64,000 nucleotides of DNA from Phycisphaerales bacterium (GTDB lineage Bacteria > Planctomycetota > Phycisphaerae > Sedimentisphaerales > UBA12454). Of the stretch, positions 10,560-15,169 are shown piece by piece. The notes beneath the pieces were generated by a model, which was not told where the DNA came from, ran no database searches, and saw only the letters and a list, made by a program, of their open reading frames with translations. The stretch lies in NCBI GenBank assembly GCA_003142595.1, contig PLMU01000018.1, positions 1 through 64,000 of the forward strand. The letters run 5' to 3'. The translations under genes and the position numbers were made by a program. How positions within the stretch are numbered: the first letter of the stretch is position 1; each line of letters starts with the position of its first letter.

Positions 10560-12230
10560 ATGAAAAATTTAAGCAATTTTTTACTTATCTCTATTATTTT
10601 TGCGTTCCCATTTAACCTTTTAGCTGCACCAGAGCAATCATATCAGAAGCCGAAAGCTGCTGGCGCAGCAAAACCGCAATCATATCAGACACAGCAAAAG
10701 ACCACCGGAACAAAAACAGCACAGACTCCGCAGGAGAAAAGAGAACAGTTTGAAAAAGAAGCTACGGAAGCCATACCTGACATTGAGGCTGAAAACGCAA
10801 AAGTCCTCTCCTGGATAAACTCCAATCAAATTCCCGATGACGCAAACCGTAACACAGCTCTCAAAAATGTTGCAAAAAACAGAAAGTATGTATCCATATT
10901 AAACAAACAGCAAAAAGGCTTCGAATATTATACGCTTTCCGCATGGGTTTATTATTTCGACGACAAACCGGACAAGGCATTGAAACAGGCGGTCGCGGGT
11001 CAGAAACTTGCTCCGCAAAATCCGAACGTCGCCAAAACCTGCCTCGCTCTTTCCCTGATTTACAAAGATTACGCAGCGGCATCTGAAGTATGCGCAAATA
11101 AAGGGGAATCCTCACAGGCAGCCGAATCCGCCTCCTCATCGACTCAGAAATTTTCATCAAATTCGCAATTATCCAACATTGAATTGAATCTCGACGTCAA
11201 CAGCATCCGTCCGGAACTGCTCGGCAAAGTATTTGATGTTCGACCACAGACAGCAAGTCCGACTCAAAAAAATCTTCTGTGTGTGTTTTTATGGAAAATC
11301 GATTCTAATGAACTTAATCGTTTTTCAGTCGCGGATACTAACGCGCCTGCCAAGGAACCAAACGCTCCTGCCCAGCCTGCTGCTGCAAATCCTAAACCTT
11401 CCATTAGCAAGAAATCATCTTCGCTGGCAATTGCACAGCAGACAGCAATATCTCCCTTTGAGGCGTTTTCGAAATTACAAAACCATTTCGCAAAAGATTC
11501 GAAAGCTGTCTTTATGGGAATCAATCTGAACGAGCCTTCAAAGGCAAATAACGTCAAAAATTGGCTGGGAAAAAATTCGCAGACCTGGCAAACCTCAATG
11601 CCTTCGGCAGACCTGCAGCAGAAAGTAACTTCGCTTTTTGCTTCCAGCCCCGCCAAACCGACTCTTATGGTTATCGGCCCGGATTCCACAATCAGATATA
11701 CCGGAGATGTAAATGGTTTTCTGCCTCAAATGATAATTCAACAAATTTTGGGAAATCCCCGGGAGTTCGAAGAACCCAATAAACCCAATGATGCTAATCA
11801 ACCGCCTGCCGCTCCTAAAAATCCTATTGTGGTTACACCTGTTAAAGTTCCTCCGCAGGCCGCAGAGCCTAATAAACCACCGCATCAAGCGGCGCCTGTC
11901 AATGAAGCAAATGTAAATCAAAAATCTTCACAGGCTGTGCCAGCCGTAAAAGCCGCACCTGCCGTCGCTGCAAATCAACAACAACAGGAGGGGGATTTTA
12001 CCGCCGAAGATTATGAGGCACAAAAACTTCTCTCAAATGCCAGTGCATTTCTTAAAATAGGCAATAGACTTCCATCTCATATGTATCGGGACCCTATCGA
12101 ATGGTGCAGAACGGTGATGAAAGACTATCCTAACACAAAATATGCTCAGCAGGCGCAGATGCTTCTTCGCAATGTGCCTCAAGAACACCGCCAACAGTAT
12201 AATCTCACCGACCAGGAATTAGGTTTGTAA
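10560..12230 (+). CDS. Exported TPR / thioredoxin-like protein of unknown function
   Basis: A 556-residue protein with a signal peptide (1-22, ending LLAAP). A Lys/Gln/Thr-rich stretch follows, then a TPR-like helical segment (about 100-175; SAWVYYFDDKPDKALKQAVAG). The middle (about 220-400) has strands resembling a thioredoxin-like fold (LCVFLWKIDSN, KAVFMGINLNEPSK, KPTLMVIGPDSTIRYTGDV), but no CxxC is present, so redox activity is unlikely. Residues about 405-470 are a Pro/Asn/Ala-rich linker. The C-terminus (KIGNRLPSHMYRDPIEWCRTVMKDYPNTKYA) looks like one more TPR. It may precede the ThyA-like gene in one transcript (30-base gap). Confidence 0.55.
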   Translation: MKNLSNFLLISIIFAFPFNLLAAPEQSYQKPKAAGAAKPQSYQTQQKTTGTKTAQTPQEKREQFEKEATEAIPDIEAENAKVLSWINSNQIPDDANRNTALKNVAKNRKYVSILNKQQKGFEYYTLSAWVYYFDDKPDKALKQAVAGQKLAPQNPNVAKTCLALSLIYKDYAAASEVCANKGESSQAAESASSSTQKFSSNSQLSNIELNLDVNSIRPELLGKVFDVRPQTASPTQKNLLCVFLWKIDSNELNRFSVADTNAPAKEPNAPAQPAAANPKPSISKKSSSLAIAQQTAISPFEAFSKLQNHFAKDSKAVFMGINLNEPSKANNVKNWLGKNSQTWQTSMPSADLQQKVTSLFASSPAKPTLMVIGPDSTIRYTGDVNGFLPQMIIQQILGNPREFEEPNKPNDANQPPAAPKNPIVVTPVKVPPQAAEPNKPPHQAAPVNEANVNQKSSQAVPAVKAAPAVAANQQQQEGDFTAEDYEAQKLLSNASAFLKIGNRLPSHMYRDPIEWCRTVMKDYPNTKYAQQAQMLLRNVPQEHRQQYNLTDQELGL

Positions 12231-12260: not shown

Positions 12261-13133
12261 ATGGAAAACATACCTGTAATTACCATAGAGGCCGGCTGTC
12301 TGCCTGAAGCATGGGAAGCTGCCGTTTTGGCTGTATGGGATAACGGCCTTGAAATTAAAACTCAGTATGACAAACCCACAGACCCGCCCAGCAAAGATGC
12401 CACCGTGATGATTACCGTTTCAGATCCTTTTGCCGAGCCGAGAATACATAAAAATTTCCCAGGCGGGCCTGAAGAACTCGAAGCTTACAGGCAGGAAGTC
12501 GTTGACGGTATTCACGACCACTGGATTGACGCTGCCGCCGGAAAATGGACTTATACCTATCATGAAAGACTTTTTGCATACAGCCCCGTCGAGGACATCA
12601 GGAACCCTAAATCTCCAAAACCTTTCGCCAAGGTTAACCAGATTCAGTATATAATCGATTCTCTTGCGGCAACAGCTTATACAAGGCGTGCCCAGGCTAT
12701 TACCTGGATGCCTACAGCCGATGTCAAAACCGACGACCCGCCCTGCCTCCAGCGGATATGGTGCCGGCTTATTGAAACTGGCGATGGAAATTTCTGTCTG
12801 AATATGAACACTCATTGGCGAAGCAGGGACCTCTACAAGGCCTGGTATATGAATGTTTATGCGCTTACCTACCTTCAGCGAACCATAGCTGAGAAAATCT
12901 CCCAAAAAATCCGCAAACCCGTTAAAGTCGGCAGATACGTTGATATCACCGATTCACTTCATATTTACGGCAGCTATTTCAGAGACGCCATAGCCGAAGT
13001 GGAAAAAATGAGGGATGGCGATTTTAAAAAACGCTCCTGGGAATCCTCACACCCGGCCTTTGCGATGATGACCGCTGAAGCGAAAGAAAAGCTTTCCCGC
13101 GACCCAGACTGGTATGCCCGCGCAAAAGGTTGA
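12261..13133 (+). CDS. Thymidylate synthase-like protein (ThyA family)
   Basis: A 290-residue protein with the active-site layout of ThyA, which methylates dUMP to dTMP using methylenetetrahydrofolate. Cys162 in DDPPCLQRIW matches the nucleophile. R187-S188-x-D190 in HWRSRDLYKAW and N198, eight residues after the Asp, match Arg166, Ser167, Asp169 and Asn177 of Escherichia coli ThyA. DSLHIYGSYF matches the DxHxY nucleotide-binding motif. The Asn at 198 favours dUMP over dCMP, although overall sequence is divergent from classical ThyA. It has a perfect AAGGAGGT ribosome-binding site. Its place before nrdR supports a dNTP role. It could instead be a hydroxymethylase; fairly confident of the family only. 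Confidence 0.75.
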   Translation: MENIPVITIEAGCLPEAWEAAVLAVWDNGLEIKTQYDKPTDPPSKDATVMITVSDPFAEPRIHKNFPGGPEELEAYRQEVVDGIHDHWIDAAAGKWTYTYHERLFAYSPVEDIRNPKSPKPFAKVNQIQYIIDSLAATAYTRRAQAITWMPTADVKTDDPPCLQRIWCRLIETGDGNFCLNMNTHWRSRDLYKAWYMNVYALTYLQRTIAEKISQKIRKPVKVGRYVDITDSLHIYGSYFRDAIAEVEKMRDGDFKKRSWESSHPAFAMMTAEAKEKLSRDPDWYARAKG

Positions 13134-13225
13134 GTTTAAGTCTGTAAAAGTCCCATAATCACATATTTATCTGTATCATTCCAAGATTTATAAAAAATCT
13201 TATTGTCTGCTTTGTACCTCTGTAA

Positions 13226-13360
13226 TTTATTTCTTATATTTTTACCGGATGAGTAAGAAACAATATTTTGCATGGACTCCTTTTCTCCTTCTGCTATTTG
13301 TGCTTCCTGCCTTGGGGGGACAACCAGGGCAGGCGACTTTAAAAGCTCACAGCAGAGCTT
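13226..13360 (+). repeat. Tandem structured repeat, unit 1
   Basis: First copy of an imperfect tandem repeat. It can fold into three hairpins: TTTCTTA/TAAGAAA (13230-13236 with 13254-13260), CCTGCCTTGG/CCAGGGCAGG (13306-13315 with 13324-13333, one T-G wobble), and AAGCTC/GAGCTT (13343-13348 with 13355-13360). The 22-base core TGTGCTTCCTGCCTTGGGG.. at 13299-13320 is identical in unit 2, exactly 180 bases on. Confidence 0.7.
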
Positions 13361-13397
13361 AAAAAATAAAATTGCTCCCCGATTTGCATCTGTCGAC

Positions 13398-13542
13398 TTT
13401 ATTTCTTATAGTTTTATTGGAAGTGATAAGAAAAGAATCGCTAAATATAAAAATGACTTCTTCTCTCCTCCTTTAACTTGTGCTTCCTGCCTTGGGGGGA
13501 ATTAACCAAGGCAGGCGGGAATTTGAGAGCTCAAAAGAGCTT
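13398..13542 (+). repeat. Tandem structured repeat, unit 2
   Basis: Second copy with the same order of hairpins: TTTCTTAT/ATAAGAAA (13402-13409 with 13426-13433), CCTGCCTTGG/CCAAGGCAGG (13486-13495 with 13506-13515, perfect) and AGCTC/GAGCT (13528-13532 with 13537-13541). Loops and linkers differ from unit 1 while stems are kept, as expected for a structured RNA or a palindromic DNA element. Confidence 0.7.
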
Positions 13543-13709
13543 TAAACGATAAAAATACTGTGTTCGCTGCTGTTTTACAAATAGTTGTGTACCTGGGCGC
13601 ATTTAAATGAGGCAAGACCTTTGCGGTTTGCATCGGCTGTCTAAAAAACTGATATCGCGTCAGGATTGTTAAAAGTGTTTGGGGGGATGTAAATATTTTC
13701 AAGAGGTGG

Positions 13710-13746
13710 GGCCTCTGCCGTTAGGGGACGCAGAGGCCTTTTCTTT
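13710..13746 (+). terminator. Intrinsic terminator
   Basis: GGCCTCTGC (13710-13718) pairs with GCAGAGGCC (13730-13738) and is followed by TTTTCTTT. It ends whatever RNA covers the tandem repeat region and insulates nrdR. Confidence 0.85.
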
Positions 13747-13908
13747 GCGCCTGGTTTTATATTTTATTTGAACATATTCTCGATAAATTATCCTGTGAAT
13801 TCTTCATTTCACCGCTCGTTACCTCATTAAATCCCAGACTTTGTGAAAAAGAAAAAGAACTATTAACAGCCCTTTTTACCTGTGAGTAAAATTTCTAATC
13901 ATTTTTGT

Positions 13909-13936
13909 TTGACATACTATATATAGATATTAAAAT
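13909..13936 (+). promoter_or_regulatory. nrdR promoter with embedded NrdR-box-like site
   Basis: TTGACA (13909-13914) and TAAAAT (13931-13936) are 16 bases apart. The spacer contains ATACTATATATAGATA (13914-13929), which matches 12 of 16 positions of an ideal NrdR box ACACTATATATAGTGT. A repressor bound there would block RNA polymerase, so autoregulation of nrdR is inferred. Only one box is seen, whereas NrdR targets usually have two. Confidence 0.55.
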
Positions 13937-13980: not shown

Positions 13981-14472
13981 GTGAAATGCCCCTATTGCAA
14001 GGAAAACAAGGATAAGGTAATTGATTCACGTTCCAGTGAAGCTGGACGCGTGATACGGCGTCGCCGGCATTGTCTCGTCTGCAAAAGACGTTTTACAACT
14101 TACGAAAAAGTCGGCGAAAGTTTTAAGCTCAGTGTCATTAAGAAAGATAATTCAAGAGTGCCCTACGACAGAGAGAGGGTTATCGCAGGGCTTCAGAAAG
14201 CCTGTTATAAAAGGCCCGTTTCCGCTGAACAGATTCAGGAGATGGCCGATAGGATTGAGGAAGACATTTTCAGGCATTCTGACAAGGAAGTAAATTCGAA
14301 ATTTATCGGTGAAAGCGCTATGAAGCATCTTAGAAACGTGGACAAGGTTGCTTATATCCGATTCGCAAGCGTTTATCGTCAATTTGATGATGCCGGCGAT
14401 TTACTTGAGGAAGTAACCCAGGCCATTGCAGAGCCGAATGATTCCGAGCAGCCAAAGCTTTTCACCGACTGA
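13981..14472 (+). CDS. nrdR: Transcriptional repressor NrdR
   Basis: A 163-residue regulator of ribonucleotide reductase genes. It starts with GTG. The N-terminal zinc ribbon has CPYC (3-6) and CLVC (about 31-34) and the segment RVIRRRRHCLVCKRRFTTYE. The ATP-cone follows (about 49-140; SFKLSVIKKDNSRVPYDRER, then VAYIRFASVYRQFDD), which senses ATP/dATP. The length and both domains are typical of the family. No nrd structural genes are in the window. The next gene, 25 bases downstream, is another ATP-cone protein and probably in the same transcript. Confidence 0.95.
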   Translation: MKCPYCKENKDKVIDSRSSEAGRVIRRRRHCLVCKRRFTTYEKVGESFKLSVIKKDNSRVPYDRERVIAGLQKACYKRPVSAEQIQEMADRIEEDIFRHSDKEVNSKFIGESAMKHLRNVDKVAYIRFASVYRQFDDAGDLLEEVTQAIAEPNDSEQPKLFTD

Positions 14473-14497: not shown

Positions 14498-15169
14498 ATG
14501 CAGCTTAGGGTAATAAAAGCGGACGATACAGAAGAAGAATACCTGCACACCAAGGTTATCGCTACATTTATCAACGCCTTTGGTGCTCCTTCCGAAAAAA
14601 ATACCGCAACTGCCCAGCAGCTTGCCGAAGCCGTTACCTTCTATTTGTATAATAAGCACGGCTCACATAAAATTACCAGCAGTGAAATATCGTCGATAAT
14701 CAAAGCTGTTCTCACTTCGACAGGTTTCGATAACGCTGCTGACTTCCTCTCCGAACATCATCAACGCCGAAATCTGCTCAGGGCAAGGGTGCAGGTCATA
14801 AAAGTAGATATGGAAAAAATATCGCCTGACACTCCCCTGCGGCAAATCGACCGCTGCGGCCCTGCTGACCCCTGGAATAAATCTAAAATTATCCATAATT
14901 TGGTTAACAAATATAATCTCCAGCCTGCTATGGCCAGGACCGTAGCCTCGCTGGTCGAAGAAAAAATTCTTAATTCCGGTTTCCGTCTTGTGCCAACTGG
15001 TTTTATCAGGTTTTTGGTTCTCTGGCAGATGCAAACGATTCTTTCTGCTCAGCAGCAGATTATAACTTGTAAGGATGATAAAGAAATCGAGTTAGCAGAA
15101 GTGTTCAATGCGGTCACGGAGGACCGCCTCAGGCAGCCGCAAAATGGACTTTGCCCCGTCGAAGCTTAA
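14498..15169 (+). CDS. Orphan ATP-cone domain protein
   Basis: A 223-residue protein. Residues 1-95 look like an ATP-cone: MQLRVIKADDTEEEYLHTKV, then EISSIIKAVLTSTGFDNAADF and the terminal LSEHHQRRNLLR. A second weaker cone-like segment spans about 125-185 (WNKSKIIHNLVNKYNLQPAMA, LVEEKILNSGF, VPTGFIRFLVLWQMQT). There is no catalytic reductase domain. ATP-cones bind ATP or dATP as allosteric switches in NrdA, NrdD and NrdR, so a regulatory nucleotide sensor is inferred. It lies directly downstream of nrdR. Such stand-alone cones are annotated in Planctomycetota only as hypothetical proteins. Confidence 0.65.
   Translation: MQLRVIKADDTEEEYLHTKVIATFINAFGAPSEKNTATAQQLAEAVTFYLYNKHGSHKITSSEISSIIKAVLTSTGFDNAADFLSEHHQRRNLLRARVQVIKVDMEKISPDTPLRQIDRCGPADPWNKSKIIHNLVNKYNLQPAMARTVASLVEEKILNSGFRLVPTGFIRFLVLWQMQTILSAQQQIITCKDDKEIELAEVFNAVTEDRLRQPQNGLCPVEA

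Follow-up and report, generated by a model that had tools for sequence, protein, structure and literature searches.

A putative planctomycete small RNA gene with paralogous pyrimidine-tract modules and an older 3′ domain beside nrdR

What occupies the region between a thymidylate synthase-like gene (thyA) and nrdR in a Phycisphaerales bacterium? The window analyzed here is a stretch of 64,000 nucleotides (contig PLMU01000018.1, positions 1 to 64,000), and a sequence-only reading of it had described, at this place, a tandemly duplicated element with three hairpins per unit, taken as structured RNA and followed by a terminator. The duplication was borne out: positions 13275-13320 and 13455-13500 form a direct repeat of 46 nt, 85% identical at a spacing of 180, and a search with unit 1 against the organism's whole 2.28-Mb assembly returned unit 2 at E 6.5e-16, the next best match having E 0.16. 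The identical core is likewise present at the 180 spacing, but is 23 nt long (13298-13320 and 13478-13500), not 22. No further copy of the unit was found elsewhere in the assembly, and for the window as a whole TRF reported no tandem array and no tRNA was found. The region upstream of thyA holds a 556-aa ORF (10560-12230) that is conserved in the organism's family (f1) and has no Pfam or NCBIfam match.

In the 5′ to 3′ direction, each unit has a promoter of the form TTTGCA-N18-TATAnT; after a spacer follow a 29-nt pyrimidine tract that ends in UUGUGCUUCC, a 10-bp hairpin and a small A/U-flanked hairpin (Table 1). The stem change reported between the two units, CCAGGGCAGG versus CCAAGGCAGG, is correct: a U·G pair becomes U-A, and the loops differ. 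Across 25 units read from the 13 f1 genomes, 98.4% of the cells of the 10-bp hairpin were paired and four pairs were changed on both sides, a result reached by 0 of 500 shuffles; covariation among relatives was thus found. Because all of the double changes come from the two units of one genome (G001), they may be the events of a single lineage. Both units do have three possible hairpins in a common order, as had been claimed, but the first of them is promoter DNA. Only 4 of the 25 homologous units form its 8-bp stem (TTTCTTA...TAAGAAA), whose left arm coincides in part with the -10 region of the conserved promoter. What stands of the structured-RNA interpretation is a stem that is kept as its loops change, with covariation; three RNA hairpins per unit and the coordinates first given to the element are not supported. 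The promoter pattern was detected upstream of 18 of the 25 units, two of these matches (G006 unit 1 and G001 unit 2) being out of place, and no match was obtained for the other seven (G007 unit 2, G009 unit 2, both units of G011 and of G008, and G001 unit 1). Within the window, a promoter pattern did not clearly exceed chance. On the reverse strand of another f1 locus (G004, L063, about 1310-1360), the motif TTTGCAT...TTTATTTCTTATATTTT precedes an apparently unrelated gene, so that it may represent a general strong promoter type in these bacteria.

Table 1. Features of the locus between thyA and nrdR, in window coordinates.
Feature	Position	Strand	Evidence
Thymidylate synthase-like gene, upstream	12261..13133	+	Pfam PF00303 above cutoff; NCBIfam TIGR03283 below cutoff
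Putative promoter of unit A, TTTGTA-N18-TATATT	13211..13240	+	Promoter pattern; overlaps the first noted hairpin
Pyrimidine tract A, seed candidate	13279..13307	+	Present in 9/13 family genomes
Hairpin 2 of unit A, 10 bp, loop GGGGACAA region	13306..13333	+	Paired in 98.4% of cells; 4 pairs changed on both sides
Hairpin 3 of unit A, small, A/U-flanked	13343..13360	+	Predicted in most units; sequence varies
Putative promoter of unit B, TTTGCA-N18-TATAGT	13383..13412	+	Promoter pattern
Pyrimidine tract B, seed candidate, contains CCUCCUUU	13459..13487	+	Identical in 10/13 family genomes
Hairpin 2 of unit B, 10 bp	13486..13515	+	Covariation over 25 units; predicted pairing
Hairpin 3 of unit B	13526..13543 (limits approximate)	+	Predicted hairpin
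GGGGGG element, hairpin loop in some homologues	13681..13686	+	Invariant in 13/13 family genomes; G-run kept in f2/f3/f5 alignment
Intrinsic terminator GGCCTCTGC..GCAGAGGCC plus T run, loop AGGGGA (13723-13728)	13710..13746	+	Paired stem changes; model R2
Separate putative nrdR promoter TTGACA-N16-TAAAAT	13909..13936	+	Between RNA terminator and nrdR
nrdR, downstream	13981..14472	+	TIGR00244 above cutoff

A DNA search with positions 13200-13560 matched all 13 genomes of f1. Nine of these genomes have a type A tract followed by a type B tract, and the others have B units: three in G005, two in G001, and one each in G004 and G002, the contig of the last beginning just upstream. The first 125 nt of that contig (L056 1-125) resemble the end of a unit A that is otherwise lost, and assemblies may break within the tandem. 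A model of the 25 units (R1), applied with strict filters, found the unit in 13 of 161 genomes of the order, exactly the 13 of f1. With the filters off, 41 loci of other families yielded no convincing unit and a single match with E 0.42. Given these misses, the tandem unit is a feature of f1. A scan of a contig collection for the core pattern gave 48 stretches; those taken as true lie on Planctomycetota contigs, and the remainder (Streptomyces and so on) look like chance matches.

The extent first given to the element proved too short, because a 3′ domain up to 13746 is also conserved. Between about 13675 and 13751, the GGGGGG element and the terminator with its AGGGGA loop are conserved in all 13 f1 genomes. 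The terminator, confirmed where it had been placed, is thus part of the conserved element. Right behind its T-run, TGCGC (13746-13750) is kept in nearly all 13 f1 loci, though it is expected to lie beyond the transcript end. At E<=0.1, a model of the 3′ domain (R2) matched 89 of the order's 161 genomes, 46 of which reached E<=0.001 by our own count of the listing. A further model (R3), built from 35 3′-domain loci of other families, gave matches at E<=0.01 in 75 of the 397 genomes of the class, with all strong matches inside the Sedimentisphaerales-type order. Eleven of the 14 matches outside the order were read, and look like unrelated chance terminators with no nrdR beside them; the weak matches inside it include G123, with nrdR beside. 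At two R3 matches, L238 (G131) and L242 (G149), the G-run is followed by GAGTTTC or AAGTTTT without a clear terminator, and these are possibly diverged forms of the domain.

The 3′ domain varies between families. In f2, GGGGGGGCUAUGUGAGUUUCUUUCCGAG stands before the terminator and AGGGGA is missing; the f5 locus (G142) and some f3 loci have an f2-like block plus AGGGGA, and a UCUCCU/CUCCUCC-type tract is also present in G142, G118 and G124. By pattern search and reading, the UCUCCU-type tract was found in 13/13 f1, 1/1 f5, 2/5 f3 and 0/34 f2 loci, and AGGGGA in 13/13 f1, 1/1 f5, 5/5 f3 (5/6 with G123) and 0/34 f2 loci, the AGGGGA of G006, G007, G009 and G142 having been taken from alignments and sequence instead of the loop parser. 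Since the tract is absent by pattern search from all 34 f2 and three of five f3 loci, the 3′ domain does not need it. All loci with the tract also have AGGGGA. This co-occurrence is in keeping with mutual pairing, and may amount to only a few evolutionary events. Overall, the predicted noncoding RNA gene runs from about 13211 to 13746 and is larger, older and differently built than first noted, and its 3′ domain is older than the units, reaches other families of the order and mostly lies just upstream of nrdR. The locus is a clean case in which paralogous seed modules have been placed in front of a more ancient RNA 3′ domain.

Within the unit, the most conserved part among the genomes compared is the pyrimidine tract between the putative promoter and the hairpin, which the sequence-only reading had not singled out. 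In ten genomes compared, identity to the window is 31-58% at the fourfold-degenerate sites of thyA but 86-100% for tract B (100% in eight); for tract A, by an ungapped count over genomes with a comparable thyA, it is 83-100%, the lowest values reflecting one-base indels. Such a difference implies strong selection on the tract. Tracts A and B differ from each other at about a quarter of positions, and each is kept across species, as expected for seeds with different targets. The tract is predicted to be unpaired with a mean probability of only 0.55, which speaks against its proposed role as a seed. A coding explanation was rejected: homologues differ by one base in the placement of the tract, so that no reading frame is conserved, and Pfam finds nothing in a 77-aa ORF. 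Comparison between genomes demonstrates selection on tract, hairpin, G-run and terminator, together with conservation of the predicted promoters.

How might such an RNA act? We put at about 0.5 the probability that the locus encodes an independently transcribed, trans-acting small RNA (sRNA) with two paralogous anti-Shine-Dalgarno-like seeds, working without Hfq. A sigma-70-like promoter, a 29-nt tract and a hairpin make up each of the modules A and B; transcripts from both would run into the one older 3′ domain and end at its intrinsic terminator. The tracts, UCUCCUCCUUU and UCUCCUUCU, probably pair with other messages; they would do so in trans at purine-rich ribosome-binding sites and block translation in the manner of anti-Shine-Dalgarno sRNAs, Hfq not being required. 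Pairing with UCUCCU is possible for the G-rich loops GGGGGG and AGGGGA, which may thereby keep the seeds hidden until they are released by a target or a protein. The preference for an antisense sRNA directed at ribosome-binding sites comes from the CCUCCUUU that tract B shares with the 3′ end of the genome's own 16S rRNA and from the analogues AbcR1/AbcR2 and CcsR1-4. As in an AbcR-like sRNA, a promoter of its own and an intrinsic terminator are recognizable from the sequence, and tract B, identical in 10 of 13 genomes, qualifies by its CCUCCUUU as a conserved pyrimidine seed candidate complementary to ribosome-binding sites. Hfq (PF17209), which an AbcR-like sRNA would call for, was detected in 0 of 13 family genomes. 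Target searches, which turned up no conserved target, speak against this reading. With up to two mismatches, the complement of seed B was found in the 13 genomes at the RNA's own copies plus one stray each in 3/13, no more often than a reversed-pattern control. For binding within the 48 mechanically called start regions of the window, 76 of 100 shuffled tracts equaled or exceeded tract B and 28 of 100 tract A; a comparison of start regions with gene interiors was left unused, since the choice of starts had favored Shine-Dalgarno-like ones and was hence biased. The thyA start region, the one strong partner of tract B (-19.2 kcal/mol), was rejected as a target because the pairing is not kept in 10 orthologues.

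The strongest rival of the antisense reading, though in itself unlikely, is that the tracts are protein-binding sites, for example for an RRM or cold-shock protein, and that the RNA is a sponge or scaffold. In favor of such a site, the tract is extremely conserved and apparently unpaired while the adjoining hairpin may change in sequence, no conserved long target was found, and across all 25 units UUGUG is invariant and UCUCCU almost so. A single protein site, however, would not require that A and B, different as they are, each be kept.

Sequestration of CsrA by GGA loops (GGGGGGA in the unit hairpins, AGGGGA in the terminator loop) is a decidedly doubtful alternative. CsrA sponges of the CsrB/RsmY type carry GGA in hairpin loops, CsrA is encoded in 12 of the 13 family genomes, and AGGGGA was read in 13/13 f1 loci, 5/6 f3 loci and the f5 locus. 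However, the unit loops lose GGA in G007 unit 2 and in both units of G011, G008 and G001, leaving only the terminator loop kept in all 13 genomes in place of several conserved GGA loops; AGGGGA persists in G001, where CsrA was not found, and is absent from all 34 f2 loci. Furthermore, titration of CsrA leaves the pyrimidine tracts unexplained. Compared with CsrB/RsmY, the locus has GGA loops and CsrA in common, but its GGA loops are few and not all kept, and it has the tracts in addition. A broader proposal, which we rate as improbable, is an order-wide RNA whose f1 form gained a module that mimics the 16S 3′ end (CCUCCUUU) and then underwent duplication; with anti-Shine-Dalgarno-like tracts and Shine-Dalgarno-like G-rich loops in one transcript, the RNA would mask itself and compete with ribosome binding without Hfq, its activity adjusted by CsrA or target mRNAs.

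A cis-acting leader or attenuator of nrdR, with terminator read-through setting nrdR expression, is similarly improbable. The gene lies on the same strand directly behind the RNA in 11 of 13 f1 loci, the exceptions being G001 and G002; among the 15 other genomes whose sequence extends far enough, it does so in 12, all but G118, G091 and G044. The usual f2 order is thyA-like gene, an ORF that from its C-terminus we take to be peptidyl-prolyl-isomerase-like, the RNA, nrdR and an ATP-cone protein; in the window too, a second ATP-cone domain protein (14498-15169) directly follows nrdR, syntenic across families of the order. A leader should always precede nrdR and leave it without a separate promoter. 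Yet the RNA persists in the five genomes just excepted, and a search behind the terminator for TTGACA-N15-19-TAnnnT matched in 9 of 13 f1 loci, the misses being G001 and G002, which have no nrdR there, and G007 and G009. With a separate nrdR promoter and an RNA kept without nrdR, the locus is most simply an independent gene that stands beside nrdR by descent. The nrdR promoter of the window contains ACTATATATAG, and similar sequence occurs in other f1 loci; it resembles a NrdR box, which suggests autoregulation of nrdR. As for a DNA repeat, or the relic of a repeat family, with no role as RNA, the tandem repeat itself is in its favor, but the absence of the unit elsewhere in the genome speaks against the dispersed repeat family once considered, and one mostly syntenic place, compensatory stem changes and a strand-specific promoter and terminator make this reading extremely improbable.

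Does the RNA belong to a known family? As the sequence-only reading had supposed, Rfam (4227 families) gives no match at the gathering score over the whole window, and in E-value mode all matches lie below gathering; the best weak match, BTnc231, reached 20 bits against a gathering score of 80.4. Conserved across the order, the 3′ domain points to a housekeeping-like RNA and in this resembles 6S RNA, but 6S RNA (RF00013) has no match in the window and a separate 6S gene elsewhere in all 13 family genomes. The literature searched yielded no description of the present RNA and almost nothing on small regulatory RNAs of planctomycetes. The RNA family appears new to Rfam 15 and to that literature, and the kind of regulator is probably already known. 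The locus offers a testable small regulatory RNA gene of Sedimentisphaerales-type planctomycetes, a group with few described; its promoters, seed candidates and terminator are defined and no Hfq was detected in the family, which makes Hfq-free planctomycete riboregulation directly testable.

The closest likeness is to AbcR1 and AbcR2 of Sinorhizobium meliloti, two homologous sRNAs that share an intergenic region as a tandem next to lsrB and carry the anti-Shine-Dalgarno motifs CUCCUCCC and UUCCCCUC (PMC8844928). Both systems place tandem homologues with anti-Shine-Dalgarno-like tracts beside a transcription-regulator gene, and they are unrelated. AbcR1 and AbcR2 bind Hfq (PMC8844928), whereas here Hfq was not found in the 13 family genomes and no Rfam family matches. 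In Rhodobacter sphaeroides, the homologous sRNAs CcsR1-4 are also grouped, and they are processed from the ccaF1 3′ UTR (PMC8625941, PMC8307010), whereas the planctomycete units are preceded by conserved putative promoters. Relative to AbcR1/AbcR2, what is particular to the planctomycete RNA is its shared 3′ domain and its position beside nrdR.
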